From SAR324 cluster bacterium (GTDB taxonomy: Bacteria > SAR324 > NAC60-12): DNA of 62,887 nt. The notes under the pieces were generated by a model. The model was not told where the DNA came from. It was given only the letters and a program-made list of their open reading frames with translations, and did not search any database. Location of the stretch: positions 1-62,887 of the forward strand of contig JADFZZ010000029.1 in assembly GCA_015232315.1 (NCBI GenBank), written 5' to 3'. This document shows, in pieces, positions 7,207-58,950 of this stretch. Both the position numbers and the translations under genes were made by a program. How positions within the stretch are numbered: the stretch's first letter is position 1; every line of letters begins with the position of its first letter.

Positions 7207-7440
7207 CCTATAAGCACCCGATCAAAAGTTTATTAACATTAAGCTGGTACCTGACATCTCAGTCAAGGCTGTTAAGTTAAGAAATTACCTGCGAGAAAAT
7301 CCCCCTTTTCAAAGGGGGCATGGGGGATTTAAAGCTCAGAATAACATCCCCCTAACCCCCTTAAACCAAGGGGGAATTGGTGCCAGTGCCTTCACAGTGC
7401 TTAACTTAACAGATGTGGACATCTCAGTGGGAACCGTTCC
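7207..7440. repeat. Family-2 repeat, left-end copy, interrupted by a family-1 element
   Basis: The flanks match the family-2 repeat seen at 42413 and 47734: a left part (TATAAGCACCCGATCAAAAG onward, through ctggtacctgacatctcagt) and a right part resuming at gggaaccgttcc. Removing the inserted element and one target duplication restores a segment the same length as the uninterrupted copy at 42.4 kb. The right end of this copy is not recognisable. Confidence 0.7.
7264..7418 (+). mobile_element. Family-1 MITE-like element, copy A (nested)
   Basis: This ~155-bp element has terminal inverted repeats CTGTTAAGTTAAG / CTTAACTTAACAG and the family core (two G/C blocks around CCCCCTTTTCAAAGGGGG and CCCCCTAACCCCCTT). 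It is flanked by the direct repeat ACATCTCAGT at 7254-7263 and 7419-7428, a 10-bp target duplication within the family-2 repeat. It has no coding capacity. Confidence 0.85.
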
Positions 7441-35350: not shown

Positions 35351-35608
35351 TCATGCCGCCATAGTCATTCTTGACACAATCTTGAAATATAAATGCAAGG
35401 GATAACGATTCATGTGAAAACACCTCTCTGGCCATTGTTCATACCCTTTCACAAATTCCTGCAACCATTGTTCACCCTCCTGCTGTGGCAACAGGCAATC
35501 GTTGACCCTGGTTTTCATATACCGTTCAATGTCGTGTACAAATAATTCAAATTCATCATCTTCATCAATCAATTGACAGTTGATGGTCCAAAATTTTAGC
35601 GTTTCCAT
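35351..35608 (-). CDS. Small unknown protein, KFWT-NC family (paralogue 1)
   Basis: 85 residues from the ATG at 35608 (GGGAGA 7 nt upstream). It opens METLKFWTINC and contains an FxxFVHDIERY motif, a WLQEFVKGYEQWPERCF block and HPLHLYF-like C terminus (YPLHLYFKI). It is clearly paralogous to the protein at 47257-47505: the start, D..E.FxHDxERY, W(L)xxFVxxYExWPxRxF and PLxxYF are shared. It is cytosolic, acidic/aromatic, with no known domain. Promoter site c lies ~65-120 bp upstream in the right orientation. Confidence 0.75.
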   Translation of the reverse strand: METLKFWTINCQLIDEDDEFELFVHDIERYMKTRVNDCLLPQQEGEQWLQEFVKGYEQWPERCFHMNRYPLHLYFKIVSRMTMAA

Positions 35609-35679: not shown

Positions 35680-35727
35680 ATTATAAAAACATTCCCTGTG
35701 TCTGTCTACTCGAAGAACTACGTGTTT
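35680..35727 (-). promoter_or_regulatory. Promoter module c with 19-bp element (drives 35608 gene)
   Basis: Read on the minus strand: AAACACGTAGTTCTTCGAG (35727-35709), -35 TAGACA (35708-35703), 17-bp spacer, -10 TATAAT (35685-35680). The predicted start lies near 35673, ~65 nt before the ATG. It is the CACGTA member of a divergent pair with module g. Confidence 0.75.
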
Positions 35728-35767
35728 ATTGGGTGGAATATGTGCCCGATCATGTTGAACTCGAATA

Positions 35768-35815
35768 AAACAGGTATTTTTACTAGGTGTTTTTTAGTTC
35801 CCGTTTGTGTATGCT
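35768..35815 (+). promoter_or_regulatory. Promoter module g with 19-bp element (towards the 36045 kinase)
   Basis: AAACAGGTATTTTTACTAG (35768-35786), GTGTTT at the -35 position (35787-35792), 17-bp spacer, TATGCT (35810-35815). It is the weaker partner of module c, 40 bp away, facing the PAS kinase gene ~230 bp downstream. Confidence 0.55.
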
Positions 35816-36044: not shown

Positions 36045-37136
36045 ATGTCTTCTGATCCACCGCCTGTCAATACTAATGACAACCTGAAGTTGCCGCATCA
36101 GCATTGGACTCAAGCCATTCCTTACAAGGAATTGCTGAACGTTGTACAAGACGCCATTGTGGTTGTGAACCAGCAGGGTTTGATTCTCTGGGCCAACCCG
36201 CAAATTGAAACATTGTTCGGGTATCCCTGTCTGGAAATAACAGGTCAACCCCTGGACTGTTTGATTCCACAGCATTTCAGAAAAAATCACCTGAAGCACG
36301 TGTCAGGCTATTTCAACAAACCTGAGGCGCGGAAAATGAGACAGGCACACCTTTGCGGTCTCCACAGGGATGGACATGAAATTCCTGTGGAAATCAATCT
36401 GTTGCCCCTGAAACTGGAAGATGAATTGCTGGTTGTCAGCCTGATCCGGGATGTCTCCCATCTGCGCCATGTTGAAGCCTTGTATCAGCAATGTGTGGTG
36501 GGACATGACGAACGGTTGAGTCAAATGCGGCACAGGGCCAAAAACAATCTGGCATTGATCATCAGCCTTCTTGATTTACAGATGTCCAACCAGTCAGAGA
36601 ATCAATTGATATCGTTGCTGACACAGACTAAAGAACGGGTGTATGCCATTGCGCTGGTTCATGAGCAACTTTCACAGAGGTCTGGAAAAACCGTCCTGCT
36701 GGCCAGTGATTTGATCCGGAAACTGACCGAACCGTTTCAGAAAACTCAGGCACGACATCTGATCAACATAACGCTGGAAATGGATGCCCGCAAGATATGG
36801 TTTTCCATGGATGAGGGAGTGCCCCTGATGCTGTTGCTCAATGAACTGATCACCAATGCGATGAATCATGCGTTTGAGCCTTATCAGGCCGGCGAAATAA
36901 GGATCGCCTTGACATCCGTTCGTGGCAAGTGCCATATGACCCTCAAAGACAATGGCCGGGGACTTCCTGAAGATGTTGAGCCATCAACCGCCGCATCGCT
37001 GGGGTTCAGGTTGATCTATGGCTTAACCCTTCAATTGCGTGGAAAGATCACTTTGGAACGTAACGCGGGAACAACGTTTCATCTGAAGTTTCCCTTGTCG
37101 GTGAAGACTTCACGTGCAGGTACGAAGAACAACTGA
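36045..37136 (+). CDS. PAS-HisKA_2 histidine kinase
   Basis: 363 residues, soluble. A PAS domain (~26-140: VVQDAIVVVNQQGLILWANPQIETLFGY) is followed by a HisKA_2-type phospho-acceptor MRHRAKNNLALIISLLDLQ (His ~163; the usual form is HHRVKNNL) and an HATPase with LLLNELITNAMNHAF and DNGRGLPED. Such kinases commonly pair with receiver proteins encoded beside them, here the REC-PAS-LuxR gene at 37656 (inference). The final codons lie inside a 233-bp tandem duplication containing a mobile element, which separates kinase and regulator. Confidence 0.88.
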   Translation: MSSDPPPVNTNDNLKLPHQHWTQAIPYKELLNVVQDAIVVVNQQGLILWANPQIETLFGYPCLEITGQPLDCLIPQHFRKNHLKHVSGYFNKPEARKMRQAHLCGLHRDGHEIPVEINLLPLKLEDELLVVSLIRDVSHLRHVEALYQQCVVGHDERLSQMRHRAKNNLALIISLLDLQMSNQSENQLISLLTQTKERVYAIALVHEQLSQRSGKTVLLASDLIRKLTEPFQKTQARHLINITLEMDARKIWFSMDEGVPLMLLLNELITNAMNHAFEPYQAGEIRIALTSVRGKCHMTLKDNGRGLPEDVEPSTAASLGFRLIYGLTLQLRGKITLERNAGTTFHLKFPLSVKTSRAGTKNN

Positions 37137-37174
37137 AATGATCATTTTGAAAATGGTAGCTCCGGGTTATGTCC

Positions 37175-37329
37175 CAATGTCGTCAACTTAAGGAATTCGT
37201 CGTCGGGAAGTCCCCCTTTTCAAAGGGGGCCAGGGGATTTAACGCTCAGAATGACATCCCCCTAACCCCCTTGAACCAAGGGGGAATGGAGACACAGGAC
37301 CATTCAAAATGCTTAAGTTGACGACATTG
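37175..37329 (+). mobile_element. Family-1 MITE-like element, copy B
   Basis: CAATGTCGTCAACTTAAG ... CTTAAGTTGACGACATTG, ~155 bp, with left target sequence GGTTATGTCC at 37165-37174. The right duplicate has been displaced by the tandem duplication and is found after copy C. Confidence 0.85.
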
Positions 37330-37407
37330 GGTAGTGAAGGCTTCACGTGCAGGTACGAAGAAGAACTGAAATGATCATTTTGAAAATGGTAGCTCCGGGT
37401 TATGTCC

Positions 37408-37563
37408 CAATGTCGTCAACTTAAGGAATTCGTCGTCGGGAAGTCCCCCTTTTCAAAGGGGGCATGAGGGATTTAACGCCCGGAATTACATCCCCCTAAC
37501 CCCCTTGAACCAAGGGGGAATGGAGACACAGGACCATTCAAAATGCTTAAGTTGACGACATTG
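37408..37563 (+). mobile_element. Family-1 MITE-like element, copy C
   Basis: Same ends and core as copy B. Flanked by the perfect 10-bp direct repeat GGTTATGTCC (37398-37407 and 37564-37573). Confidence 0.88.
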
Positions 37564-37589
37564 GGTTATGTCCGGGGCTGTTAAGTTAA

Positions 37590-37655: not shown

Positions 37656-38666
37656 GTGAGTGTCAAAATTCTGGTAGTAGAAGATGAATTCGCGATTGGA
37701 ACCGTCATTGCCCAGCAGATTCAGCAATTGGGGTATGTGGTTGACGAAATTGTGGCATCCGGCGAACAGGCTATCAAAAGTTGTGAGCACCATCATCCTG
37801 ATCTGGTTTTGATGGATATTCAGCTCAACGGAAAAATTGATGGTATTGAGGCCGCCAGAAAAATTGCTGAATATGAGATTCCTGTGGTTTTTTTGACGTC
37901 CCATGTGGATTCTAAAACCCTGGATCGCGCAAAAACCACCCTTCCCAATGGCTATCTGCTAAAACCTGTCTGCCTGGAGGATCTGAAAATCACGCTGGAA
38001 GTTGCGCTTTACAAGCATCAAAATGAAAAAAAATTGAAACGTCGTGAGCAATGGCTGGAGTCTATTCTTGAAAAATTTCAAGATGGCGTCATCACAACAG
38101 ATACAGCAGGTTCTATCACTTATTTCAACCCCAGTGCCGAACGATTGACAGGCTGGAGCGCAAAAAAAGCACTGGGACTTTCGTGCCAGAAAGTTCTGAA
38201 TTTCGAGGAAAATGGATTTGCTGTCGACACGTTCAATCTTATCAATGAATTACTCGGGGAAGCGCCTGAAAATGGGGTGAATCGTGATCAAATTCAGATC
38301 ATCAGCAAACAAAAAAAAATGTTTCCTATCGATCTGCATGTGACTCTTCTCAAGGATGAACAGGGGGGCATCAAGGGGAATGTGATTACGATCCGTGACC
38401 GTTCTAACCGTCACACTATTGCCTCTGACGCTGAGGATCCCCGGCAGTCCCTGATACATTCCCTGACGAAACGTCAGAAAGAGATCCTGACCTACATTGC
38501 CCGTGGCTACTCGACCAAGGAAATTGGTTCGATGCTGTTTATCAGTCCCCGGACTGTGGAATTTCATCGTCAAAATATGATGAAGACCCTTGGTGTTCAT
38601 GATGTGGTCGCCTTAGTCCAGGTGGCAATCCTCCATAAAATCCACGGCACCTTTCAAAAAAACTGA
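37656..38666 (+). CDS. REC-PAS-LuxR (NarL/FixJ-type) response regulator
   Basis: 336 residues from a GTG with AAGGAA 7-8 nt upstream. The receiver (1-120) has the acidic pair ED, acceptor Asp in LVLMDIQLNG and LLKPV. A PAS domain (~125-250) follows, then a C-terminal LuxR-type helix-turn-helix (~268-336: LTKRQKEILTYIARGYSTKEIGSMLFISPRTVEFHRQN). It is the only protein in this window with a recognisable DNA-binding output domain. It lies between promoter pairs c/g and f/a, which makes it the best local candidate for recognising the 19-bp element (inference). Confidence 0.93.
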   Translation: MSVKILVVEDEFAIGTVIAQQIQQLGYVVDEIVASGEQAIKSCEHHHPDLVLMDIQLNGKIDGIEAARKIAEYEIPVVFLTSHVDSKTLDRAKTTLPNGYLLKPVCLEDLKITLEVALYKHQNEKKLKRREQWLESILEKFQDGVITTDTAGSITYFNPSAERLTGWSAKKALGLSCQKVLNFEENGFAVDTFNLINELLGEAPENGVNRDQIQIISKQKKMFPIDLHVTLLKDEQGGIKGNVITIRDRSNRHTIASDAEDPRQSLIHSLTKRQKEILTYIARGYSTKEIGSMLFISPRTVEFHRQNMMKTLGVHDVVALVQVAILHKIHGTFQKN

Positions 38667-39221: not shown

Positions 39222-39270
39222 ATTATACAAAAAAACCAGCAGATAAAACACCTCGTAAAACTACCGGTTT
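39222..39270 (-). promoter_or_regulatory. Promoter module f with 19-bp element (drives 39020 gene)
   Basis: Minus strand: AAACCGGTAGTTTTACGAG (39270-39252), GTGTTT at -35 (39251-39246), 18-bp spacer, TATAAT (39227-39222). It is the CxGGT member of the pair with module a, 40 bp away. Confidence 0.7.
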
Positions 39271-39310: not shown

Positions 39311-39358
39311 AAACACGTAGTTTTCCGAGTAGATAAAAACTCATAAATCACTTAATTG
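39311..39358 (+). promoter_or_regulatory. Promoter module a with 19-bp element (drives 39472 gene)
   Basis: AAACACGTAGTTTTCCGAG (39311-39329), -35-like TAGATA (39330-39335), 17-bp spacer, weak -10 TAATTG (39353-39358). The leader contains a possible hairpin, aaaaactcat (39336-39345) with atgagttttt, upstream of the PAS gene. Confidence 0.65.
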
Positions 39359-39471: not shown

Positions 39472-39978
39472 ATGCTACTTGAAAATATTCGTGAAAATGT
39501 GGTGAGAAACATGAATTTAATGGAGGATGTCCACAAGAACAAACGGTCCAATGTTTCACGATTGACCAGTCTTTCCGTATTTCCACCCATGGGGGATTCG
39601 AATAATCAACTGTTTCCCTGGCTCGCAACAATTCTGGATCACATACAAGACGCGATCATTACCGTGGATATTCTGGAAAAGGTGACGTTCATGAGTCCGT
39701 CCGCGGAAAAACTGTTTGCCTGCAGAAGAGAAAAAGCTTTGTGCCGGAATATCAGGGAAATATTCACCATGGTGGACAAACAGGCAGGATCCCTGATTCC
39801 GCTTCCGGTAACAGAATCAATCAGGCAGAACAAGGTGATTCCCCTGAAACCCTCTGTGCTGATATTGAATCATGCCCACGTCCGGCATAATGTGGAAGGC
39901 TGGGTTATGCCCATGACCAATGAATATGGACAAATCGTTGGCGCCACCCTGATTGTCCATTCTGTCATCATCAACTGA
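39472..39978 (+). CDS. Stand-alone PAS-domain protein
   Basis: 168 residues, start supported by AGGGGG 4 nt upstream. The single PAS domain spans ~45-165 (ATILDHIQDAIITVDILEKVTFMSPSAEKLFACRREKALCRNI). There is no kinase, receiver or DNA-binding part, so it would act by binding a ligand or partner. The first ~40 residues are charged and probably flexible. It is preceded by promoter module a and followed by the short-repeat tract. Confidence 0.82.
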   Translation: MLLENIRENVVRNMNLMEDVHKNKRSNVSRLTSLSVFPPMGDSNNQLFPWLATILDHIQDAIITVDILEKVTFMSPSAEKLFACRREKALCRNIREIFTMVDKQAGSLIPLPVTESIRQNKVIPLKPSVLILNHAHVRHNVEGWVMPMTNEYGQIVGATLIVHSVIIN

Positions 39979-39984
39979 TTTTTA

Positions 39985-40343
39985 AGGACAAAGGTTAAAG
40001 GGGAAAGGGGAAAGGGAAAAGGGAAAAGGGAAAAGGGAAAAGGGAAAAGGGGAAAGGGAAAAGGGGAAAGGTCAAAGGTCAAAGGTCAAAGGTCAAAGGG
40101 AAAAGGGAAAAGGACAAAGGGGAAAGTACAGCCCTTAATCTTTTTCAACCTTTAACCTTTAACCTTTAACCTTTGTCAACCTTTAACCTTTGTCAACCTT
40201 TAACCTTTGTCAACCTTTAACCTTTGTCAACCTTTAACCTTTAACCTTTAACCTTTAACCTTTAACCTTTGTCAACCTTTAACCTTTAACCTTTAACCTT
40301 TAACCTTTGTCAACCTTTAACCTTTAACCTTTAACCTTTTTTT
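39985..40343. repeat. Polypurine/polypyrimidine short-tandem-repeat tract with complementary halves
   Basis: The left half (39985-40126) consists of A/G-rich units (AAAGGGG, GGGAAAA, AAAGGTC). The right half (40146-40343) consists of AACCTTT heptamers interspersed with AACCTTTGTC decamers. The units are complementary (GACAAAGGTTAAAGG vs CCTTTAACCTTTGTC), so the tract can form a long imperfect hairpin. It runs into the 3' end of the receiver gene and supplies its last codons and stop. Confidence 0.9.
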
Positions 40344-40710
40344 CCCTATTGGAAAAAATCTCTTCAATGGTCTGGCCTAACAGTCCCCGTCGCAAGGGTT
40401 TGAATAAACAGCCATCCGCAATGTTTTTGCCGCATTTGTTGTTAATATATTCCCGGGTGTGAGCGGTTAAAAACAAAATGGGAAGATCCGAGAATTTCCG
40501 GATTTGTTTCATGAGTTCGATTCCATCCATGCCGGTCGACAAGGAAATATCTGACAACAGCAAATCAGGCGGATTTTTTTTGATGTTTTTTAGAGCCTCC
40601 TCGCCGGAACTCATCACCGGTTCAACCTTATAACCCAATTGCCGCAACTGATTTTTCAGATCCATGGCGATGAGTGCCTCATCTTCCACAATCATAATGC
40701 GAACAGCCAT
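40324..40710 (-). CDS. Single-domain response regulator
   Basis: 128 residues from the ATG at 40710, preceded by AGGAG 7 nt upstream and one base after the stop of the kinase gene, so translation is coupled. Only a receiver is present: VEDE, acceptor Asp in LLLSDISLSTGMDG, T in LFLTAHT and K in CLFKPL. It is the likely phosphate acceptor of the adjacent HisKA_2 kinase, passing the signal by protein contact. The last residues (KKVKG) and the stop are encoded by the AACCTTT repeat tract. Confidence 0.9.
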   Translation of the reverse strand: MAVRIMIVEDEALIAMDLKNQLRQLGYKVEPVMSSGEEALKNIKKNPPDLLLSDISLSTGMDGIELMKQIRKFSDLPILFLTAHTREYINNKCGKNIADGCLFKPLRRGLLGQTIEEIFSNREKKVKG

Positions 40711-40711
40711 G

Positions 40712-42379
40712 TCAAACTCCTGATTCGTGATGTGGATTGAAGGTGATTTTCGCGGTAACGCCCTCGTCCAGATTCCATTCAAGCCTGCCTTTGAGTTGGC
40801 CCGACAAGGCCCCAACGATCTGCAGACCCAGTGTCTCCAGAGTGCTTATATCCAGAATGTCAGGAAACCCCACCCCATTGTCAGCCACAAGAAGGACATA
40901 CGTATCATTTTTTTGTGGAGTGAGAGTGATCTTGATCCTGCAATTTGTTTGTTCTGGGGGCGGAAACGCGTATTTCAACGAATTGGTCACAAGCTCATTG
41001 ACAATCAATCCGCAAAGAATGGCCTGACTCATCTCCAGCGAAATACCATAGACCTCCACCTTGAGTGCCACCGAAATTTCATAGGACTGGATTAAATGCG
41101 ACACCAGATTTTCTACATACTGACCAAAATCGATTCGTGTCAGGTCACTCGATTGATAGAGCTTTTCATGGATCAGCGCGATGGAATTGACCCGGTCCTG
41201 ACTTTCCCTGAACATCTGGCGATATTTTTCATCGAGGATAAATCCGGATTGCAAGTTGAGCATTGAGGAAATGATCTGCAGATTGTTTTTTACCCGATGA
41301 TGGATTTCCTGCAACAGCACCTCTTTTTCCTGTAAACTTTCCTGGATCTGCATTTCCGATCGTTTGCGCCCGGTTATATCGCGGATGATTAAAAAATATT
41401 CACCATCAATTCCCGGAGCGATTCGTGATTCACGATAGAAGGTCTTGTTATTCAACTTGATCTGATATTCCAGAACTTGAATTTCTCCGGTGCTTAAGGC
41501 GATTTGCGCGGCCTCATGACTCTGTTTAAGAATCTCACGGGAAAGATCGGCCGCAAGATCAGACCATGTTCCCCAATCGCTCATGATTTGTCCGGTGTGT
41601 ATCTTTCTTACAGTCTTCATTCTGGACTTAAAATCCTGAAGGGCACCATTGGCACCAATGCGGCATATCAGATCAGGAATAGCGTTCAGCAGAGCGGCTT
41701 GGCGGTTCTCACTCTTTTGCAGTGCGATTTCGGTTTCCTTGACTTGAGTTATATCCACAAAGGTCAACACCAGTCCATCAGAGACACCAGCATAATTTCG
41801 GTAGGGGATGATCCTCAGGAGATGCTGGACCCCCTCAAGGAGTGAGATCTCTTGTTCCAGTGTTTTACCTGTACTCAAAACATGCATGGTATCTTTAACC
41901 AATGAATCGGGTATGAGCTGGTTGGAAAAATCATGGAGGGGACGGCCCACATCGCCCGGCATGAGATGCATGATGCGGGTTAAGGTGGGGGTGAAGCGCC
42001 GGATGCGTAATTGGGAATCCAGAAAGAGGGTTCCGATGTTGGTACTGCTCAGTTGATTGTCGAGATCGTTGTTGGCCTGATTCAGTTTGGCAATCTGCTC
42101 TTGAAGGGTCGTGTTGACCGAGTTGATTAAATCCTGTGATAGCGACAGTTCCTGAGTGCGCATGATCAATTCCTCATTGGTTGTCCTGAGTTCGTCGTTG
42201 TGGAGCGCAAGTTCCTCAATGGTCTCCTGCAGGGACTGCCGGGTGATTTTTAATTCTTTTTCCAGCTCAAGCACACGCAATTCGGCGACGGAACCCTTTT
42301 TGCTCCGGGGCGTTGTGCTTTTTTTGCGGGATCCGGACTTATCGCCGGGTGGGATCGGTATTTTTTTATTTGGCGGCAT
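40712..42379 (-). CDS. Coiled-coil-PAS-PAS-HisKA_2 histidine kinase resembling the tail of CheB-CheR kinases
   Basis: 555 residues, soluble. A basic N terminus precedes a coiled coil with NEEL repeats (~30-110), then a PAS_10-like domain (~115-225, ending LVLTFVDITQVKE), a second PAS (~235-345), HisKA_2 (EIHHRVKNNLQIISSMLNLQ, His ~361) and HATPase (GLIVNELVTNSLKYAF, DNGVGFPD). The coiled coil plus PAS_10 is homologous to residues ~690-890 of the CheB-CheR protein at 31.7 kb. Gene order (kinase, 1-bp gap, receiver) gives a compact two-component pair. Confidence 0.92.
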   Translation of the reverse strand: MPPNKKIPIPPGDKSGSRKKSTTPRSKKGSVAELRVLELEKELKITRQSLQETIEELALHNDELRTTNEELIMRTQELSLSQDLINSVNTTLQEQIAKLNQANNDLDNQLSSTNIGTLFLDSQLRIRRFTPTLTRIMHLMPGDVGRPLHDFSNQLIPDSLVKDTMHVLSTGKTLEQEISLLEGVQHLLRIIPYRNYAGVSDGLVLTFVDITQVKETEIALQKSENRQAALLNAIPDLICRIGANGALQDFKSRMKTVRKIHTGQIMSDWGTWSDLAADLSREILKQSHEAAQIALSTGEIQVLEYQIKLNNKTFYRESRIAPGIDGEYFLIIRDITGRKRSEMQIQESLQEKEVLLQEIHHRVKNNLQIISSMLNLQSGFILDEKYRQMFRESQDRVNSIALIHEKLYQSSDLTRIDFGQYVENLVSHLIQSYEISVALKVEVYGISLEMSQAILCGLIVNELVTNSLKYAFPPPEQTNCRIKITLTPQKNDTYVLLVADNGVGFPDILDISTLETLGLQIVGALSGQLKGRLEWNLDEGVTAKITFNPHHESGV

Positions 42380-42544: not shown

Positions 42545-43423
42545 TTATTGTGCGGGATCAATGCCTGCCTTTTTGAGAAGTTCCATGAGGCGTTCTTCTC
42601 TTTTTTGAGCGTCTTCTTTTTGTTGAAGTGCCTGCTCTAAGGCCACGGACAGTTGATTTCTTTCCTGTTCCATACGGAGTTGATCCTGTTCCATACGGAC
42701 TTTTTCCTGTTCCATACGTTTCATTTCCGACTCCCTGTAGCGTTGCAGGCGCAAACCTTCGAGTCGGGCTTCATACAGCCAGTAATCAGCGTCTTTTTCA
42801 GCGAACCGTTTCAAAACATTCATAGCTTCCTCTAATGCGTTTATTGTTTGTAGTTCTTCTGGAAGTTCTTTCCAATGCTGGGCTTCCTCAAAAAAATAGA
42901 GCCAGGCGTTTTCAGGATCAAGGGGACGGTCTTCCGGTTTTTTCCATTTGGGTAACTCCAGCACATGAATGGAACAATGCTCACTCAGTTTGAATCGGTG
43001 TTCAGCGTCATACACCTGAAAATGATGATGCACGGCAGGGGACTCAGAAAAAAATATTCCATCCAGTAACCAGATGGCGATCACCGGACAAAGTTGATTG
43101 TAATTTTCCCCTTCGTCAATCTGTTTTTTATAAAGGACGCTCCAGTTATAGAGCATTCTCTCACCCAGACAACGATCCAGTGTCAATTGGACTTCAATCT
43201 GATAGAGACGGCCCTGCGAATCCTGAGCCTTGACATCCACCACCGTGAGTTTATCGCTGAGAAATTCTTTGGCGTTGTAGGGATTCAGTATTTCAACCTC
43301 GAGGATGGGATTCTCCAGTTTCAGGATGCTGTTGAGAAAATGCAGAAGAATTCCCTTGTGTTCCGGATCTCCCAGAATAGCCTTAAACACACAATCGATC
43401 AACGGGTTGATAAAGTGCTTCAT
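42545..43423 (-). CDS. Rpn-family recombination-promoting nuclease (PD-(D/E)XK)
   Basis: 292 residues. The N-terminal two thirds follow the Rpn/PD-(D/E)XK 'transposase-like' family: start MKHFINPLIDCVFKAILGD, then the catalytic D..(E/Q)xQ layout in LTVVDVKAQDSQGRLYQIEVQL, and WLLDGIFF. The C terminus is a Glu/Gln/Arg-rich coiled coil (~215-285). Rpn proteins are DNA endonucleases that stimulate RecA-independent recombination and often occur in multiple copies. Whether it relates to the many small mobile repeats here is unknown; a family-1 element lies just upstream. Confidence 0.88.
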   Translation of the reverse strand: MKHFINPLIDCVFKAILGDPEHKGILLHFLNSILKLENPILEVEILNPYNAKEFLSDKLTVVDVKAQDSQGRLYQIEVQLTLDRCLGERMLYNWSVLYKKQIDEGENYNQLCPVIAIWLLDGIFFSESPAVHHHFQVYDAEHRFKLSEHCSIHVLELPKWKKPEDRPLDPENAWLYFFEEAQHWKELPEELQTINALEEAMNVLKRFAEKDADYWLYEARLEGLRLQRYRESEMKRMEQEKVRMEQDQLRMEQERNQLSVALEQALQQKEDAQKREERLMELLKKAGIDPAQ

Positions 43424-43549
43424 AACAGGAACCTGTCTCAGGTGAACTCAACGAAAAATGTCCTTCACTGTCTCAATTTTTCAGGGACAAAACAAGCTCT
43501 TAATGACGCTGGAACTTCAAGAAAAACATGCTCGATCGGGGCTTCAGGA

Positions 43550-43704
43550 CAATGTCGTAAACTTAAGGAATTACCTGTGAGAAAATCCCCCTTTTCAAAG
43601 GGGGTTGGGGGATTTAACCCTCAGAATTACATCCCCCTAACCCCCTTAAACCAAGGGGGAATTGGTTCACCGTACCATTCTGGATGCTTAAGTTGATGAC
43701 ATTG
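43550..43704 (+). mobile_element. Family-1 MITE-like element, copy D
   Basis: 155 bp, CAATGTCGT..CTTAAGTTGATGACATTG, with a perfect 10-bp duplication GGCTTCAGGA (43540-43549 and 43705-43714). It lies between the nuclease start and the hybrid kinase stop. Confidence 0.9.
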
Positions 43705-43718
43705 GGCTTCAGGAGGGA

Positions 43719-46652: not shown

Positions 46653-46934
46653 TCAGACGGTGGCCGATAAAGAAAATTCGGGAATCACAGAAAGCACATC
46701 CTCTGCCTGGCCACCATCCCGGGGAAAACCCTCACTGATCACAAAATCCTGCACACAGCCTGCACGCCAGCAACATCCTGATTGCTGACAACTGCCTGCG
46801 ATTTTAGTGGCGTAGCAGGGAAAATTTCCTTCCTGGCGTTGAATCGCATGAATCATTTTCTGCTTATGTTTGATGGCCTGGAAAATATTGCACTGTTTAT
46901 CAATTACAAAGCTTCGAAATTCAGCGGATGTCAT
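46653..46934 (-). CDS. Small cysteine-rich unknown protein
   Basis: 93 residues from the ATG at 46934, chosen because AGGAGG lies 5 nt upstream; a frame from 46952 adds six residues. Six cysteines include a CQQSGCCWRAGC cluster (~48-60) that could bind metal or form disulfides. No signal peptide is present. It is placed 60 bp before the hybrid kinase start and ~54 nt after the predicted start site of promoter e, so it likely leads an operon with that kinase. Family unknown. Confidence 0.72.
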   Translation of the reverse strand: MTSAEFRSFVIDKQCNIFQAIKHKQKMIHAIQRQEGNFPCYATKIAGSCQQSGCCWRAGCVQDFVISEGFPRDGGQAEDVLSVIPEFSLSATV

Positions 46935-46994: not shown

Positions 46995-47042
46995 ATAATA
47001 AATCTTTTTCTGATCTGTGTATACTCGATAAACTACCTGATT
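46995..47042 (-). promoter_or_regulatory. Promoter module e with 19-bp element (drives Cys-rich gene and hybrid kinase)
   Basis: Minus strand: AATCAGGTAGTTTATCGAG (47042-47024), -35 TATACA (47023-47018), 17-bp spacer, -10 TATTAT (47000-46995). Paired with module b; 108 bp separate the two elements here, including a hairpin. Confidence 0.7.
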
Positions 47043-47077: not shown

Positions 47078-47104
47078 AAAACCCCGTAGTCTTACGGGGT
47101 TTTT
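47078..47104 (+). terminator. Rho-independent-type hairpin between two divergent promoters
   Basis: An 11-bp stem (AAAACCCCGTA / TACGGGGTTTT) with GTCT loop followed by Ts. Its position between divergent modules e and b, upstream of both, is odd. It may insulate the promoters, end an unrecognised short RNA, or be a repeat remnant. Confidence 0.6.
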
Positions 47105-47150: not shown

Positions 47151-47198
47151 AAACACGTAATTTTACGAGTAGATTTTAAAAATTGAAATCATTATAAC
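47151..47198 (+). promoter_or_regulatory. Promoter module b with 19-bp element (drives 47257 gene)
   Basis: AAACACGTAATTTTACGAG (47151-47169), -35 TAGATT (47170-47175), 17-bp spacer, -10 TATAAC (47193-47198). The predicted start is near 47205, ~52 nt before the ATG. Confidence 0.75.
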
Positions 47199-47256
47199 TC
47201 AAACTGTGGCGCGACACCTTTCATTGTTATTTTTTGAACGTTTTTTAGGAGGATTC

Positions 47257-47505
47257 ATGAAGGAAGTAAAATTTTGGACCGTGAATTGTGAGATATTCAG
47301 GAGTGATGATGAATTAGAAACTTTTATTCATGATCTGGAACGGTATGTCACTGTGATGTTTCATAAGTGCAATATGCCGCAGAATAATAGCGAAGGATGG
47401 TTGGAAAGTTTTGTCAGAGACTATGAACACTGGCCTAAAAGAATATTTCGGAACAACCAGCATCCATTGAAGTCCTATTTCTCAATTGAGACAAGGCTCA
47501 TTTAG
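47257..47505 (+). CDS. Small unknown protein, KFWT-NC family (paralogue 2)
   Basis: 82 residues from the ATG at 47257 with a perfect AGGAGG 4 nt upstream (an ATG-less extension from 47206 is unlikely). It shares MxxxKFWTxNC, DDExExFxHDxERY, WLxxFVxxYExWPxRxF and PLxxYF with the 85-residue protein at 35.4 kb. There are no membrane segments. The paralogues lie 12 kb apart, on opposite strands, each directly behind a 19-bp-element promoter, so they are likely expressed together. Confidence 0.78.
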   Translation: MKEVKFWTVNCEIFRSDDELETFIHDLERYVTVMFHKCNMPQNNSEGWLESFVRDYEHWPKRIFRNNQHPLKSYFSIETRLI

Positions 47506-47538
47506 TTCAGGGCCGAACCTGTGTGTTTGCCATGCTCC

Positions 47539-47692
47539 CAATGTCGTCAACTTAAGCATCCAGAATGGGACGTGAACCAATTCCCCCTTGGTTTAAGGGG
47601 GTTAGGGGGATGTAATTCTGAGGGTTAAATCCCCCAATCCCCTTTGAAAAGGGGGATTTTCTTACAGGTAAGTCATGAAGTTGACGACATTG
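47539..47692 (-). mobile_element. Family-1 MITE-like element, copy E (opposite orientation)
   Basis: 154 bp, same ends, with the core reversed relative to the other copies. The flanks gccatgctcc (47529-47538) and gccctgctcc (47693-47702) match at 9 of 10 positions. The insertion point is the same target sequence as copy F at 58.7 kb. Confidence 0.85.
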
Positions 47693-47733
47693 GCCCTGCT
47701 CCCGGGCAGACACATGGGGCTACCCCTACAGTA

Positions 47734-51935: not shown

Positions 51936-52142
51936 TCATAAAGTCTGTTTTATGAATCTGGGTTTGAGGACAACAATCAAATCCAGAAATTCAAATAAAT
52001 CATCCTCCAGATCCCACATGGGTGGTCGGCCTTGTGGTTGATGAATTTGAATAGAACCGCCATTTTCCAGATATCTGACAATTTCCCGTTGCAGTAATTC
52101 TCGGGAAACAATGTTTTTGAAGCAATTGCCTGATGTTTTCAT
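51936..52142 (-). CDS. Small unknown protein upstream of the solute-binding kinase
   Basis: 68 residues from the ATG at 52142, selected by AAGGAG 5 nt upstream; a longer frame reaches 52178. It contains RELLQREIVRYLENGGSIQIHQPQGRPPMWDLEDDLFEFLDLIVVLKP. There is no signal peptide or known domain. It lies 60 bp after the 54-residue gene and 175 bp before the kinase on the same strand, consistent with one transcript from promoter d. Confidence 0.68.
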   Translation of the reverse strand: MKTSGNCFKNIVSRELLQREIVRYLENGGSIQIHQPQGRPPMWDLEDDLFEFLDLIVVLKPRFIKQTL

Positions 52143-52201
52143 AGGTCTCCTTGTTTTATGTGGTGAATAAATGCTCATGCATAATCGCGTCTCTCATGGC
52201 A

Positions 52202-52366
52202 TCAGGAATGGGATGACAGGGACCGTGTTGTTCTCAAAATATAATGGGCATCGTAATTTTTTTTATAATTTCTGTCGGGAGCCAAATAAAATTTACCGTT
52301 GAAGAGCATTACCGCCTCATTTTTATGTTTTTTCCTTCTGAATGATCTGATGAGCTTATTGATCAT
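52202..52366 (-). CDS. 54-residue basic small protein
   Basis: A short frame begins at an ATG at 52366 with AGGGGA 8 nt upstream and ends TGA at 52202. It encodes MINKLIRSFRRKKHKNEAV..NGKFYLAPDRNYKKNYDAHYILRTTRS.... It is strongly basic and Tyr rich, with no homologue recognised. The predicted start site of promoter d lies ~79 nt upstream, similar to the other small genes with this promoter. Coding status is inferred from ribosome site, position and promoter. Confidence 0.6.
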   Translation of the reverse strand: MINKLIRSFRRKKHKNEAVMLFNGKFYLAPDRNYKKNYDAHYILRTTRSLSSHS

Positions 52367-52451: not shown

Positions 52452-52500
52452 ATTATAGAAAAAATGGACGACGAATGTCTACTCGCAAAAATACGTGATT
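52452..52500 (-). promoter_or_regulatory. Promoter module d with 19-bp element (drives 52366 gene and onward to the kinase)
   Basis: Minus strand: AATCACGTATTTTTGCGAG (52500-52482), -35 TAGACA (52481-52476), 18-bp spacer, -10 TATAAT (52457-52452). It is the CACGTA member of the pair with h. Confidence 0.75.
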
Positions 52501-52538: not shown

Positions 52539-52557
52539 AAACAGGTGATTCCACGAG
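52539..52557 (+). promoter_or_regulatory. 19-bp element h without a clear promoter
   Basis: AAACAGGTGATTCCACGAG lies 38 bp from element d, in the opposite orientation. The following TCCTGT and the hexamer 17 bp on (TTTCGG) are poor. It may be a pure binding site or a decayed promoter. The nearest plus-strand gene is the lanthipeptide synthetase, 640 bp away. Confidence 0.5.
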
Positions 52558-52597
52558 TCCTGTCTGCAGGGCTGTTTAATTTTCGGTTTGGCATGGT

Positions 52598-53194: not shown

Positions 53195-56100
53195 ATGCAT
53201 CAAGACAAAATCTGGCTTCAGCAAATCTATCAACGCACCCTCTCGACCACTGAATGGGCAGACCTTCCGGACTCCTGCAAAACGGAACCTGTGATTGATC
53301 AGGATGCCCAGGCGCTGCTGGAACGCTGGCAAAAACTGGTCATGCTCGGTGAAGCGCCTCAGGGTGCGTTTGACGCTCGGCTTGAACAGCTTGGCTTGAC
53401 TCATGAAACCGCCTTGAAGCGACTCGGTATACGCACACTGTCCCCTGAGGTTCCGCTGGCAGAATGGCTTGAATTACTGGGAGATGTGTTAGATCAGGAC
53501 AACTTTGACAAAAGTTTGTTTGATGTCGGACGCCTGAATCAGTACTCAGAAGAAGAAATCAAAGTGCTTGGCACTGACAAACGGCCTGTTTTTGCGGAGT
53601 GCTTCTTTCCATGGCTCCAGGTTGCCGGGAACCGGATTGCTGTGAAACATCCTGACTGGGATCAATGGCTCTCGGAGGAAGCACGATACCAGATCATGCG
53701 CTATCTTTTGTTCCGTTTGTCCGGTCTGGCATCACGCACGTTTTCCTACGAAATCAAACGACAGCAGTCTCAACTCAAAGTCGGGGGCGAAACCGCGGAA
53801 GCACGCTATGAGTACTACATGACTCAGGTTCTGGGAAAACTGGAGGGGCAAAAAAAACTTTTTGAACAATATCCTGTGCTGGCCCGTCTGCTTGCCACCA
53901 GTACGCTGTTGTTTCTGAATCATTTTGAGGAATTGCTCACACGCTGGAAAGCGGATTATTCAGCAGTGCTTAAACATTTTAAATTTTCAGCGAAAACACC
54001 TTGCATCAAACACATCATCATGGGGCTTTCTGATCCTCATAATGGTGGAAAAACTGTTTGTTTTATTGATTTCGGCACACACAACCGAATCGTGTACAAG
54101 CCCCGCTCCATGAAAACCGATGAGGCGTTTTATCAACTGGAGGAGTGGATCAACAAAGCCAATCAACTTCCGGCGTTGAAAACACTGAAATTGCTGGCAC
54201 GAAAAAATTATGGCTGGTGTGAATTTGTGAAATCTCAGGAATGCGTTTCAGAAACTCAGGTCGCCAATTATTATGCCCGACAGGGAATCCATCTGGCCTT
54301 GTTTTATTTCTTGTGCGGGATTGATTTTCATCATCAGAACTTTATCGCTCACGGTGAGTTTCCTGTACCCATTGACCTCGAAGGGCTTTGTGCTCCGGGG
54401 ATGCATGTCATGCCGCCTCATTCCTCCTGGATGCCTTCCAGCTATCAGTTGCTGGATTTTTCCCTGGTCGCGACTACCATGCTTCCGCGCTGGCGTGCCG
54501 GCGATTATGACCGTGCCCTGTATCTGGATTCTGGCATTGATGGTTCCGGAAGCCGATTGGCTCCACTCAAACGTCCCAAATGGTATGATCTGCGTAAGGA
54601 CACTCTGCGTCTTGGCTGGGATTATTCTCCGGGATCAGGCAATGAATCCCGTCCGTCATTCAATGGGAAATCACATTCTGTTCAGGAGCATATTCCTGAA
54701 TTATTAAATGGTTTTGAGCAGGCATACCGGTTTATTTTAGAGCATAAACAATTTCTGCTGAAATCTGGCAGTCCACTTTCCAAATTTAAAAATGTGACCA
54801 GCCGCTGGTTGAACCGTGATACCCAGATTTATTATGACCTGCTGTTCTGGGCCAGTGCGCCCGATCAACTGGTATCAGGACTCAAATATGACATTGCCCT
54901 GGAAATGATGGCTCATACCGCGCCAGTTCTCGGGAATCGGGTTTCGTTAATGGATGACGAGAAACAAAGCTTATGGAAACAGGACATCCCGGTTTATTAT
55001 GCGGTGGCATCTCAACGGCGCTTGATTTCAGGTTCAGGCCGTCAGTTTCCCGGTGCCTTGACCCGCGGGTGTTTTTCTCAAATCTGTCAGCGCCTGAAAC
55101 AGGCCGGCGAAGAAGACATGAACTGGCAGAAACAACTCGTGAAAGGATCGTTTGCCCTTGCGTTGCAGGCTGAAACGCCTCCCCCCGCGGTGATGACCGG
55201 ACCCGGTGCCGAAAACAAAGCCCTTGAATCCAGATTTCTGGATTATGCCGTCCGCATTGGCAAGGCGCTGGAAGCACAGGCGCTGGAAAGTCGGGGCGGC
55301 CATTGCTGGCTGGGCTTACAACGACTTTCGCAGGCAACAGGATATGTGGAATATGTACGGCTGGTTCCCTGGCTGTATTCAGGAACCTCGGGCATTGCGG
55401 TGTTTCTCATGAATCTGTATCGTGCCACCAATGAAAACCGCTTCAGGGATTTGGCGGTTTCCGCACTGAATTACGGAAATCATGCCCTGCAATGGACGAT
55501 TGATCATGGCGGTACCTCACAAATTCCGCTTTCCGGTTTCAATGGACTTGGGTCTGTCATATACACCCTGACCGAGGCTGGAAGATTATCGGGGCAACAG
55601 GATTTTACCCGGCAGGCATTCCGGTTGAGTGAATTGATCAATGAAGCCATGATTGAGAAAACGCAGGATCCGGATGTTTTGAATGGTTCGTCAGGGACCT
55701 TGCTGGCTTTGATACACCTCTATCACCATCATCCAGCCCCTTCTTTGCGGATGTTGATGGCGTCCCTTGTCAAAAACATCCTTGCCCGACAAACCGGGGA
55801 TGGCGACACGGCAGGATGGATTGTTCCCATCAACACAAGACCTCTGCTGGGAATGGCGCATGGGGCTTCAGGCATCGCCTATGCCTTGTCCAGATATTAC
55901 GCGTTGACCCATGAAGAAACTGTAAAAAATTCCATCATGCGTGGCTTGGCCTATGAACAACAACATTTTTCAGAGTCTTATCAGGACTGGCCAAATCTTC
56001 AGGCGCCTCCGGGACAATTACATTTCATGACAGGCTGGTGTGCCGGTGCTCCCGGAGCCGGTCTGGCACGCTTGGGGATGCTTGAGGCCTTTCCAGCTCA

Positions 56101-56434
56101 TGAGGGCCTTCAAAACCAGCTACGGTCAGCGGTCACAACCACCATTCGTTATTTGCGCCAACCTTGCGATCACCTTTGCTGTGGCGATACCTCCAGAATC
56201 ATTTTATTGATGGAAGCCGGAAAAATGTTGGCGAATGATTCCTGGAAAAATCAGGGCGAACAGACGCTTGCCAGCATGATGGCATTCTATGAAAAAGAGG
56301 GCTATCTGCGGCTTCAGAATTTTTTTGACAAATGGATCATTCCAGATTTGATGATAGGCATTTCAGGAGTCGGCATGGCTTTGCTTCAGGCCTGTATGCC
56401 TGAAAATATTTCAAGAGTTCTAATGCTGAAGTAA
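53195..56434 (+). CDS. Class II lanthipeptide synthetase LanM, CCG type
   Basis: 1079 residues. The N-terminal dehydratase domain (DUF4135, ~190-560) shows LSDPHNGGK, YKPRSM (~300) and DFHHQN..PIDLE (~376-395), residues used to phosphorylate and eliminate Ser/Thr. The C-terminal LanC-like cyclase (~690-1075) has MAHGASGIAY, GWCAGAPG (~947) and CCGD (~993). The zinc site is thus of the Cys-Cys-Cys (CCG) kind known from substrate-tolerant ProcM-like enzymes. No precursor peptide or LanT transporter/protease is recognisable nearby. An unknown 705-residue gene follows after 73 bp. Confidence 0.93.
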   Translation: MHQDKIWLQQIYQRTLSTTEWADLPDSCKTEPVIDQDAQALLERWQKLVMLGEAPQGAFDARLEQLGLTHETALKRLGIRTLSPEVPLAEWLELLGDVLDQDNFDKSLFDVGRLNQYSEEEIKVLGTDKRPVFAECFFPWLQVAGNRIAVKHPDWDQWLSEEARYQIMRYLLFRLSGLASRTFSYEIKRQQSQLKVGGETAEARYEYYMTQVLGKLEGQKKLFEQYPVLARLLATSTLLFLNHFEELLTRWKADYSAVLKHFKFSAKTPCIKHIIMGLSDPHNGGKTVCFIDFGTHNRIVYKPRSMKTDEAFYQLEEWINKANQLPALKTLKLLARKNYGWCEFVKSQECVSETQVANYYARQGIHLALFYFLCGIDFHHQNFIAHGEFPVPIDLEGLCAPGMHVMPPHSSWMPSSYQLLDFSLVATTMLPRWRAGDYDRALYLDSGIDGSGSRLAPLKRPKWYDLRKDTLRLGWDYSPGSGNESRPSFNGKSHSVQEHIPELLNGFEQAYRFILEHKQFLLKSGSPLSKFKNVTSRWLNRDTQIYYDLLFWASAPDQLVSGLKYDIALEMMAHTAPVLGNRVSLMDDEKQSLWKQDIPVYYAVASQRRLISGSGRQFPGALTRGCFSQICQRLKQAGEEDMNWQKQLVKGSFALALQAETPPPAVMTGPGAENKALESRFLDYAVRIGKALEAQALESRGGHCWLGLQRLSQATGYVEYVRLVPWLYSGTSGIAVFLMNLYRATNENRFRDLAVSALNYGNHALQWTIDHGGTSQIPLSGFNGLGSVIYTLTEAGRLSGQQDFTRQAFRLSELINEAMIEKTQDPDVLNGSSGTLLALIHLYHHHPAPSLRMLMASLVKNILARQTGDGDTAGWIVPINTRPLLGMAHGASGIAYALSRYYALTHEETVKNSIMRGLAYEQQHFSESYQDWPNLQAPPGQLHFMTGWCAGAPGAGLARLGMLEAFPAHEGLQNQLRSAVTTTIRYLRQPCDHLCCGDTSRIILLMEAGKMLANDSWKNQGEQTLASMMAFYEKEGYLRLQNFFDKWIIPDLMIGISGVGMALLQACMPENISRVLMLK

Positions 56435-58669: not shown

Positions 58670-58950
58670 GGGGCGAACCTGTGTGTTCGCCCTGCTCCCA
58701 ATGTCGTCAACTTTAGGACGTCCCTGCGAGAAAATCCCCCTTTTCAAAGGGGGCATGGGGGATTTAACGATCAGAATCACATCCCCCTAACCCCCTTAAA
58801 CCAAGGGGGAATTGGTACACAGCATCATTCAGAATGCTTAAGTTGATGACATTGGCCCTGCTCCAGGGCAGACCACAGGTCTGCCCCTACAGTACAAAAC
58901 CCAAATCGGGAAACGCATCAAATATTCGATTTTGATACATGGCCGAAAAT
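58670..58950. repeat. Dispersed repeat interrupted by a family-1 element
   Basis: gggcgaacctgtgtgttcgccctgctcc | agggcagaccacaggtctgcccctacagtacaaaacccaaatcggg... matches 47512-48000 and, in part, 39083. It fills the gap between the 705-residue gene and the pentapeptide gene. Confidence 0.7.
58698..58854 (+). mobile_element. Family-1 MITE-like element, copy F
   Basis: 157 bp with a perfect 10-bp target duplication GCCCTGCTCC (58688-58697 and 58855-58864), in the same target as copy E but with the opposite core orientation. Confidence 0.9.

Follow-up and report, generated by a model that had tools for sequence, protein, structure and literature searches.

The window analysed here is a stretch of 62,887 nucleotides from a SAR324 cluster bacterium. 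It contains eight copies of the element CASGTAnTTTTnCGAG, arranged as four head-to-head pairs around the genes of a histidine kinase and a response regulator (Table 1). Copies with CACGTA are designated a1 to a4, and those with C[AC]GGT (GGT copies) g1 to g4. All eight elements were recovered independently, and their arrangement as four divergent pairs, as proposed in a preliminary description of this DNA, was confirmed. The inner gaps between the 16-mers of pairs 1 to 4 are 46, 46, 114 and 44 bp, in agreement with the 40, 40, 108 and 38 bp given earlier, where three more bases per side were counted as part of the element. Only 0.74 element matches are expected in a dinucleotide-shuffled window, whereas six were observed. 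When the 62.9-kb window was scanned with the refined matrix, PWM scores above 9 were obtained only for the eight copies, the palindromic read-backs of two of them and a hairpin within pair 3. The paired elements in the window are real and exceed chance.

Table 1. Predicted operators with their promoters, and the associated regulatory genes, in the window.
Feature	Position	Whole feature	Strand	Sequence	Remarks
Pair 1, operator a1	35709-35724	35680-35724	-	CACGTAGTTCTTCGAG	-35 TAGACA, -10 TATAAT, 17-bp spacer
Pair 1, operator g1	35771-35786	35771-35815	+	CAGGTATTTTTACTAG	GTGTTT and TATGCT; 46 bp from a1
Histidine kinase gene, PAS-HisKA_2-HATPase	36045-37136		+		Putative sensor partner; downstream of g1
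Response regulator gene, REC-PAS-GerE, NarL/FixJ type	37656-38666		+		Putative binder of all operators
Pair 2, operator g2	39252-39267	39222-39267	-	CCGGTAGTTTTACGAG	GTGTTT and TATAAT, 18-bp spacer
Pair 2, operator a2	39314-39329	39314-39358	+	CACGTAGTTTTCCGAG	TAGATA, weak -10; gap 46 bp
Pair 3, operator g3	47024-47039	46995-47039	-	CAGGTAGTTTATCGAG	TATACA and TATTAT
Pair 3, 'extra hairpin', read as a third, symmetric operator copy	47082-47099		none	CCCCGTAGTCTTACGGGG	Core CGTA-GTCT-TACG; 43 bp from g3, 55 bp from a3
Pair 3, operator a3	47154-47169	47154-47198	+	CACGTAATTTTACGAG	TAGATT and TATAAC
Pair 4, operator a4	52482-52497	52452-52497	-	CACGTATTTTTGCGAG	TAGACA and TATAAT, 18-bp spacer
Pair 4, operator g4	52542-52557	52542-52563	+	CAGGTGATTCCACGAG	Distal site only, no recognisable promoter; gap 44 bp

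Other repeats are also present in the window. Interspersed repeats of 118-182 nt occur in both orientations at 7264-7381, 37150-37565, 43525-43706, 47537-47695 and 58675-58856, one of them beside a PD-(D/E)XK transposase-like gene (42545-43423). At 39984-40350, heptamer arrays of AAGGGGA/AAGGTCA are followed on the same strand by ACCTTTA arrays, which together form a large imperfect inverted repeat.

A sigma-70 promoter is plausible after every copy in the window except that at 52542, with only a weak -10 box at 39314. The -35 hexamer (TAGACA, TAGATA, TAGATT, TATACA or GTGTTT) directly abuts the element, and the -10 box is positioned 16-18 bp further. At this distance at least five of six matches to TATAAT were found for 22 of the 55 sites scored in all genomes, compared to 25 of 1638 control positions. 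Sites that abut or overlap the -35 region, with a -10 box at 16-18 bp, have the arrangement of class-II sigma-70 promoters, for which activation is predicted. The poorer -35 sequences previously noted for the GGT copies are indeed found as GTGTTT at g1 and g2, but g1 to g3 possess good -10 boxes (TATGCT, TATAAT and TATTAT). Toward the outside, a1 faces a gene of the small protein family X (35354-35608), g1 the histidine kinase gene, a2 a PAS protein gene (39472-39978), g3 a small Cys-rich ORF (up to 46934), a3 a second family X gene (ending at 47505) and a4 the small ORFs 52202-52366 and 51936-52178. The Cys-rich ORF (46653-46934, minus strand; CYATKIAGSCQQSGCCWRAGC) has no Pfam match. A LanM-type lanthipeptide synthetase (DUF4135 and LANC_like) is encoded at 53195-56434, about 650 bp from g4, the copy that has no recognisable promoter.

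With R1, a model of the eight elements, four further elements were detected in the same genome at E<0.05, located on C2, C36, C24 and C9. The element at C2:305225 has a partner at a gap of 47 bp and C36:46402/46449 is a pair with a gap of 46 bp, whereas no partner was found in a partner scan for the strong sites C24:18768 and C9:106900. As counted from model searches and single stretches, the 5.25-Mb genome harbors about 14 sites, eight of which lie within 17 kb of window sequence; six pairs stand against two singles and 10 of 12 strong sites are paired, so that singles are not as common as pairs genome-wide. The module recurs in genus g5 (G004 and G010) and in G002, where the element is a near-perfect dyad, CACGTA-GATC-TACGAG (CGTA-N4-TACG), with an A-tract on its inner side. 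Over six genomes 45 of 63 strong sites were paired according to a single-site model, and several strong single sites occur in relatives as well. Outside the family, one site match was obtained in 21 genomes (E 0.0099), and the system seems to be confined to one family.

The spacing of the pairs is narrowly distributed. Among 28 pairs the gap is 46 bp in 16, 47 bp in five, 45 bp in four, 48 bp in two and 44 bp in one, although the pair model R2, with its bias towards gaps of about 46 bp, was used to fetch most loci of relatives; the pairs on C2 and C36 (single-site searches) and at G010:C416 (plain pattern search) were found without it. Gaps of 44-48 bp correspond to 60-64 bp centre to centre, and the mode of 46 bp to 62 bp or about six helical turns. 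In the partner scan, which covered gaps of 20-140 bp, sites fell into two groups, those with a strong partner, located 45-47 bp away, and those with no partner clearly above background; a candidate at 43 bp, with a score of 9.1, was the one weak exception. The spacer contains another A-tract about 10 bp from the first (A at position 12 in 19 of 28), and A-tracts spaced in this way would fit intrinsic bending. No exact IHF consensus was found among the 28 spacers.

Seven promoter pairs were matched between G004 and G010; identity is 81-100% in the proximal operators and 75-100% in the distal ones, compared to 57-77% in the spacers. Both operators seem to be under selection, because they are kept in orthologous promoters while the spacers diverge. 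The dominance of pairs and the kept spacing of 44-48 bp are consistent with cooperative binding, and since this spacing is retained at orthologous promoters of another genus, the earlier suggestion of a conserved module held by cooperative binding gains support. Alternatively, each promoter might depend on its proximal site only, with the distal copy present incidentally, for example as the second promoter's own site; single-site promoters do exist in the family. The higher identity of distal sites than of spacers, and their retention where no gene starts on that side, make this improbable. A variant element, TACGTAnnnTTACGGATAGACA, is mostly unpartnered and precedes respiratory and other genes of relatives (L140:4011, L141:4097, L147:2312, L147:6476, L152:10292 and L139:4002). 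These variants could represent promoters at which the same regulator uses one site, or they could belong to a paralogue.

Each pair in the window combines one CACGTA and one GGT copy, as the preliminary description stated, but the chance probability of this is 16/70 (23%) and the rule fails elsewhere. The pairs on C36 and at G010:C416 are CACGTA/CACGTA, and 7 of 23 pairs in relatives are mixed, with 10.7 expected. Outside the window, subtype pairing is random. Polarity describes the pairs better: usually one element, with TAGACA or TAGATT and a -10 box, points at a gene, and the other often points at the 3' end of the adjacent one. In the GGT form the outer C-G of the dyad is disrupted, and this form is most readily interpreted as a weaker operator.

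These data also bear on the proposal that the pairs are a bidirectional module copied as a unit. Divergent use is plausible for window pairs 1-3; all four window pairs are situated between divergent ORFs, and -10-like boxes with at least 4/6 matches are present on both sides of pairs 1 and 3, with pair 2 weaker on one side. However, divergent use is not obligatory, as several pairs in relatives have a promoter and gene start on one side only, their distal element pointing at the 3' end of the adjacent gene. The spacers in the own genome are no more alike than shuffled sequences, and because they are unrelated to each other a recent block copying of pairs is not indicated. Together with the random pairing of subtypes in relatives, which in the window is not significant either, this renders an obligatorily bidirectional promoter module with two defined subtypes, copied through the genome as a unit, very doubtful. 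The inverted arrangement and fixed length also recall a miniature transposable element with its terminal inverted repeats, or the recombination sites of an invertible promoter. Such an origin is hardly credible, as the inner sequence is not common to the copies, the promoters are located at a constant distance outside the repeats and the pairs are conserved at orthologous promoters across species; MITEs and invertible elements were discarded on the basis of the unshared spacers and the kept positions.

Pair 3 differs from the other pairs in the window by its long gap, and the extra hairpin described for it is present. The hairpin is itself read as an operator copy, because its dyad matches that of the operator. 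Its PWM score is in the range of the elements (20.6/24.7), it matches the R3 model at E 0.116, and A-tracts flank the core CGTA-N4-TACG on both sides. Relatives carry sites of the same form (CCCGTAAATCTACGGG and CCCGTAAAACTACGGG). We read pair 3 as a set of three putative operators, the centres of neighbouring ones being 59 and 71 bp apart. The hairpin may also serve as a terminator. A known RNA family was rejected for it, as Rfam gave no gathering-level match in window positions 30000-56000.

The response regulator contains a REC domain (Response_reg, 1.4e-21) and a C-terminal GerE HTH (8.3e-20), which places it in the NarL/FixJ class, and its HTH resembles those of VraR, EvgA, FixJ and SsrB in PDB matches. 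Pairs 1 and 2 lie on either side of the regulator gene, which follows the kinase gene at a distance of 520 bp; in the window no site was found directly upstream of it. Orthologues in G004 and G010 share 52-53% identity, and each is encoded beside a kinase that combines REC with HisKA_2-like parts. The G002 orthologue shares 46%, and its gene is preceded, at about 180 bp, by the strongest pair of this genome. Sites adjoin the regulator gene in G000 and occur within a few kb of it in G004 and G010; in G003 the gene order is usp-kinase-regulator. The orthologue is present in 10 of the 31 family genomes, and all five genomes with sites at E<=0.05 (G000, G002, G003, G004 and G010) harbor it, a co-occurrence with P=0.0015 (uncorrected for kinship and with G008 left out). 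G008 holds the orthologue and has one marginal site match (0.049), which is within expectation for 31 genomes.

The regulator is thus the likely binder of the elements, and the HisKA_2 kinase its likely partner. A different transcription factor could bind the paired operators, with the response regulator gene nearby by coincidence. The window is crowded with signalling genes, such as those of hybrid kinases and a REC protein (40324-40815), and five regulator-positive genomes (G005, G006, G009, G039 and G041), whose orthologues are 38-44% identical, have no confident sites. Nevertheless, a different binder appears unlikely, as the regulator HTH has only itself as a match in its own genome (E<=0.001) and is the only LuxR-type HTH found there, sites are located near the regulator gene in four genomes of three genera in addition to the co-occurrence in five of five, and a dyad with GTA/TAC half-sites is usual for NarL/FixJ-type regulators.

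We therefore consider it probable that the elements are palindromic operators (CGTA-N4-TACG) of this regulator, with the kinase as its partner, and that they act by two-operator class-II activation. One regulator dimer would occupy the operator that abuts the -35 hexamer (roughly positions -51 to -36) and, as a class-II activator, recruit RNA polymerase with sigma-70. The inverted operator, centred 62 bp further upstream on the same face of the DNA, would be bound by another dimer, which would strengthen or stabilise the proximal one, probably via a short bend or loop. At pairs flanked by genes on either side, such as pairs 1-3 of the window, the proximal operator of one promoter could be the distal operator of the opposite promoter, and in relatives many pairs would serve one gene. 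Operators, spacing, promoters, conservation and the association with the regulator gene are read here from the sequence; binding by the regulator, the sign of its effect, DNA looping and the nature of the signal we infer.

Genes at the sites of relatives encode Usp, Hsp20, cbb3 oxidase (COX1-FixO; CcoN/FixO), GlgC, ADP-forming acyl-CoA synthetase, acetyl-CoA hydrolase, a molybdopterin oxidoreductase and a multihaem cytochrome, and, by sequence reading, NapD-NapA and fumarate reductase or succinate dehydrogenase. In the own genome, the targets are WS/DGAT (C2), REC-GcvH (C36), the kinase, the PAS protein and small proteins mostly without assigned function. The predicted targets point to respiration and survival at low oxygen, a reading that rests on the relatives, as the downstream genes of the window genome mostly encode small unknown proteins. 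From the target genes of relatives, the signal would be low oxygen or another redox cue. An 824-aa gene in L116 was dropped as a phosphoketolase candidate, as Pfam finds nothing. The family X proteins (about 85 aa, no Pfam match) are encoded downstream of a1 (minus strand) and a3 (about 47254-47505, plus strand), with a third own copy at C4:141129 and relatives in the genera g5 and g2. Family X was rejected as a general target, as no paired sites were found at the relatives' loci or the third own copy (L049-L053, L055-L057, L077, L080-L082).

DevR binds a proximal site overlapping the -35 region and cooperatively a second site, the divergent tgs1-Rv3131 promoters rely on one high-affinity and one low-affinity site, and a usp gene is located beside the two-component genes (PMC3029386). 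The system described here resembles DevR/DosR (including narK2-Rv1738) in its NarL-type regulator, the proximal site at -35, the second site and the divergent genes. In G003 a usp gene stands beside the two-component genes, and in G004 and G010 one is located close to the regulator gene; none was seen in the window. DosR targets include Hsp20, WS/DGAT (tgs1) and nitrate metabolism, and the targets predicted here are similar (Usp, Hsp20, WS/DGAT, nitrate metabolism). However, the DevR/DosR operator is TTSGGGACTWWAGTCCCSAA, whereas the consensus here is CACGTAnATnTACGAG. DevR has two domains (REC-HTH), closely packed sites and a GAF-haem HisKA_3 kinase, whereas here a PAS domain is inserted between REC and GerE, the operators are 62 bp apart and the kinase is of the PAS-HisKA_2 type. 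The regulator system is not DevR.

As in rhizobial FixLJ-FixK, a LuxR-type response regulator is predicted to lead to cbb3 oxidase genes under low oxygen. FixJ, with its haem-PAS kinase, acts mostly through the CRP/FNR protein FixK, whereas here an operator is located directly at ccoN and the kinase is PAS-HisKA_2. GacA/UvrY operators (TGTAAG-N4-CTTACA), bound by a NarL-type regulator, share the dyad with GTA/TAC half-sites with the operators predicted to be bound here, but differ in half-site spacing and lack a fixed second site 62 bp away. We tentatively suggest that the system might be a lineage-specific low-oxygen regulon, with an origin separate from those of DosR and FixJ. Its REC-PAS-LuxR regulator would use a rigid inverted 62-bp pair (six helical turns), with phased A-tracts between the operators, as a standard uni- or bidirectional promoter part.

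The elements are best read as an ordinary kind of site, NarL/FixJ-type operators, whose geometry is unusual and strictly conserved and whose predicted regulon can now be recognised. An unassigned two-component system is hereby tied to an operator and a predicted regulon by sequence alone, in a family known here from draft genomes. The fixed inverted operator pair departs from the close-packed sites described for DevR, and the likeness of the targets to those of DosR (Usp, Hsp20, WS/DGAT and respiratory enzymes) suggests a recurrent solution for survival at low oxygen.
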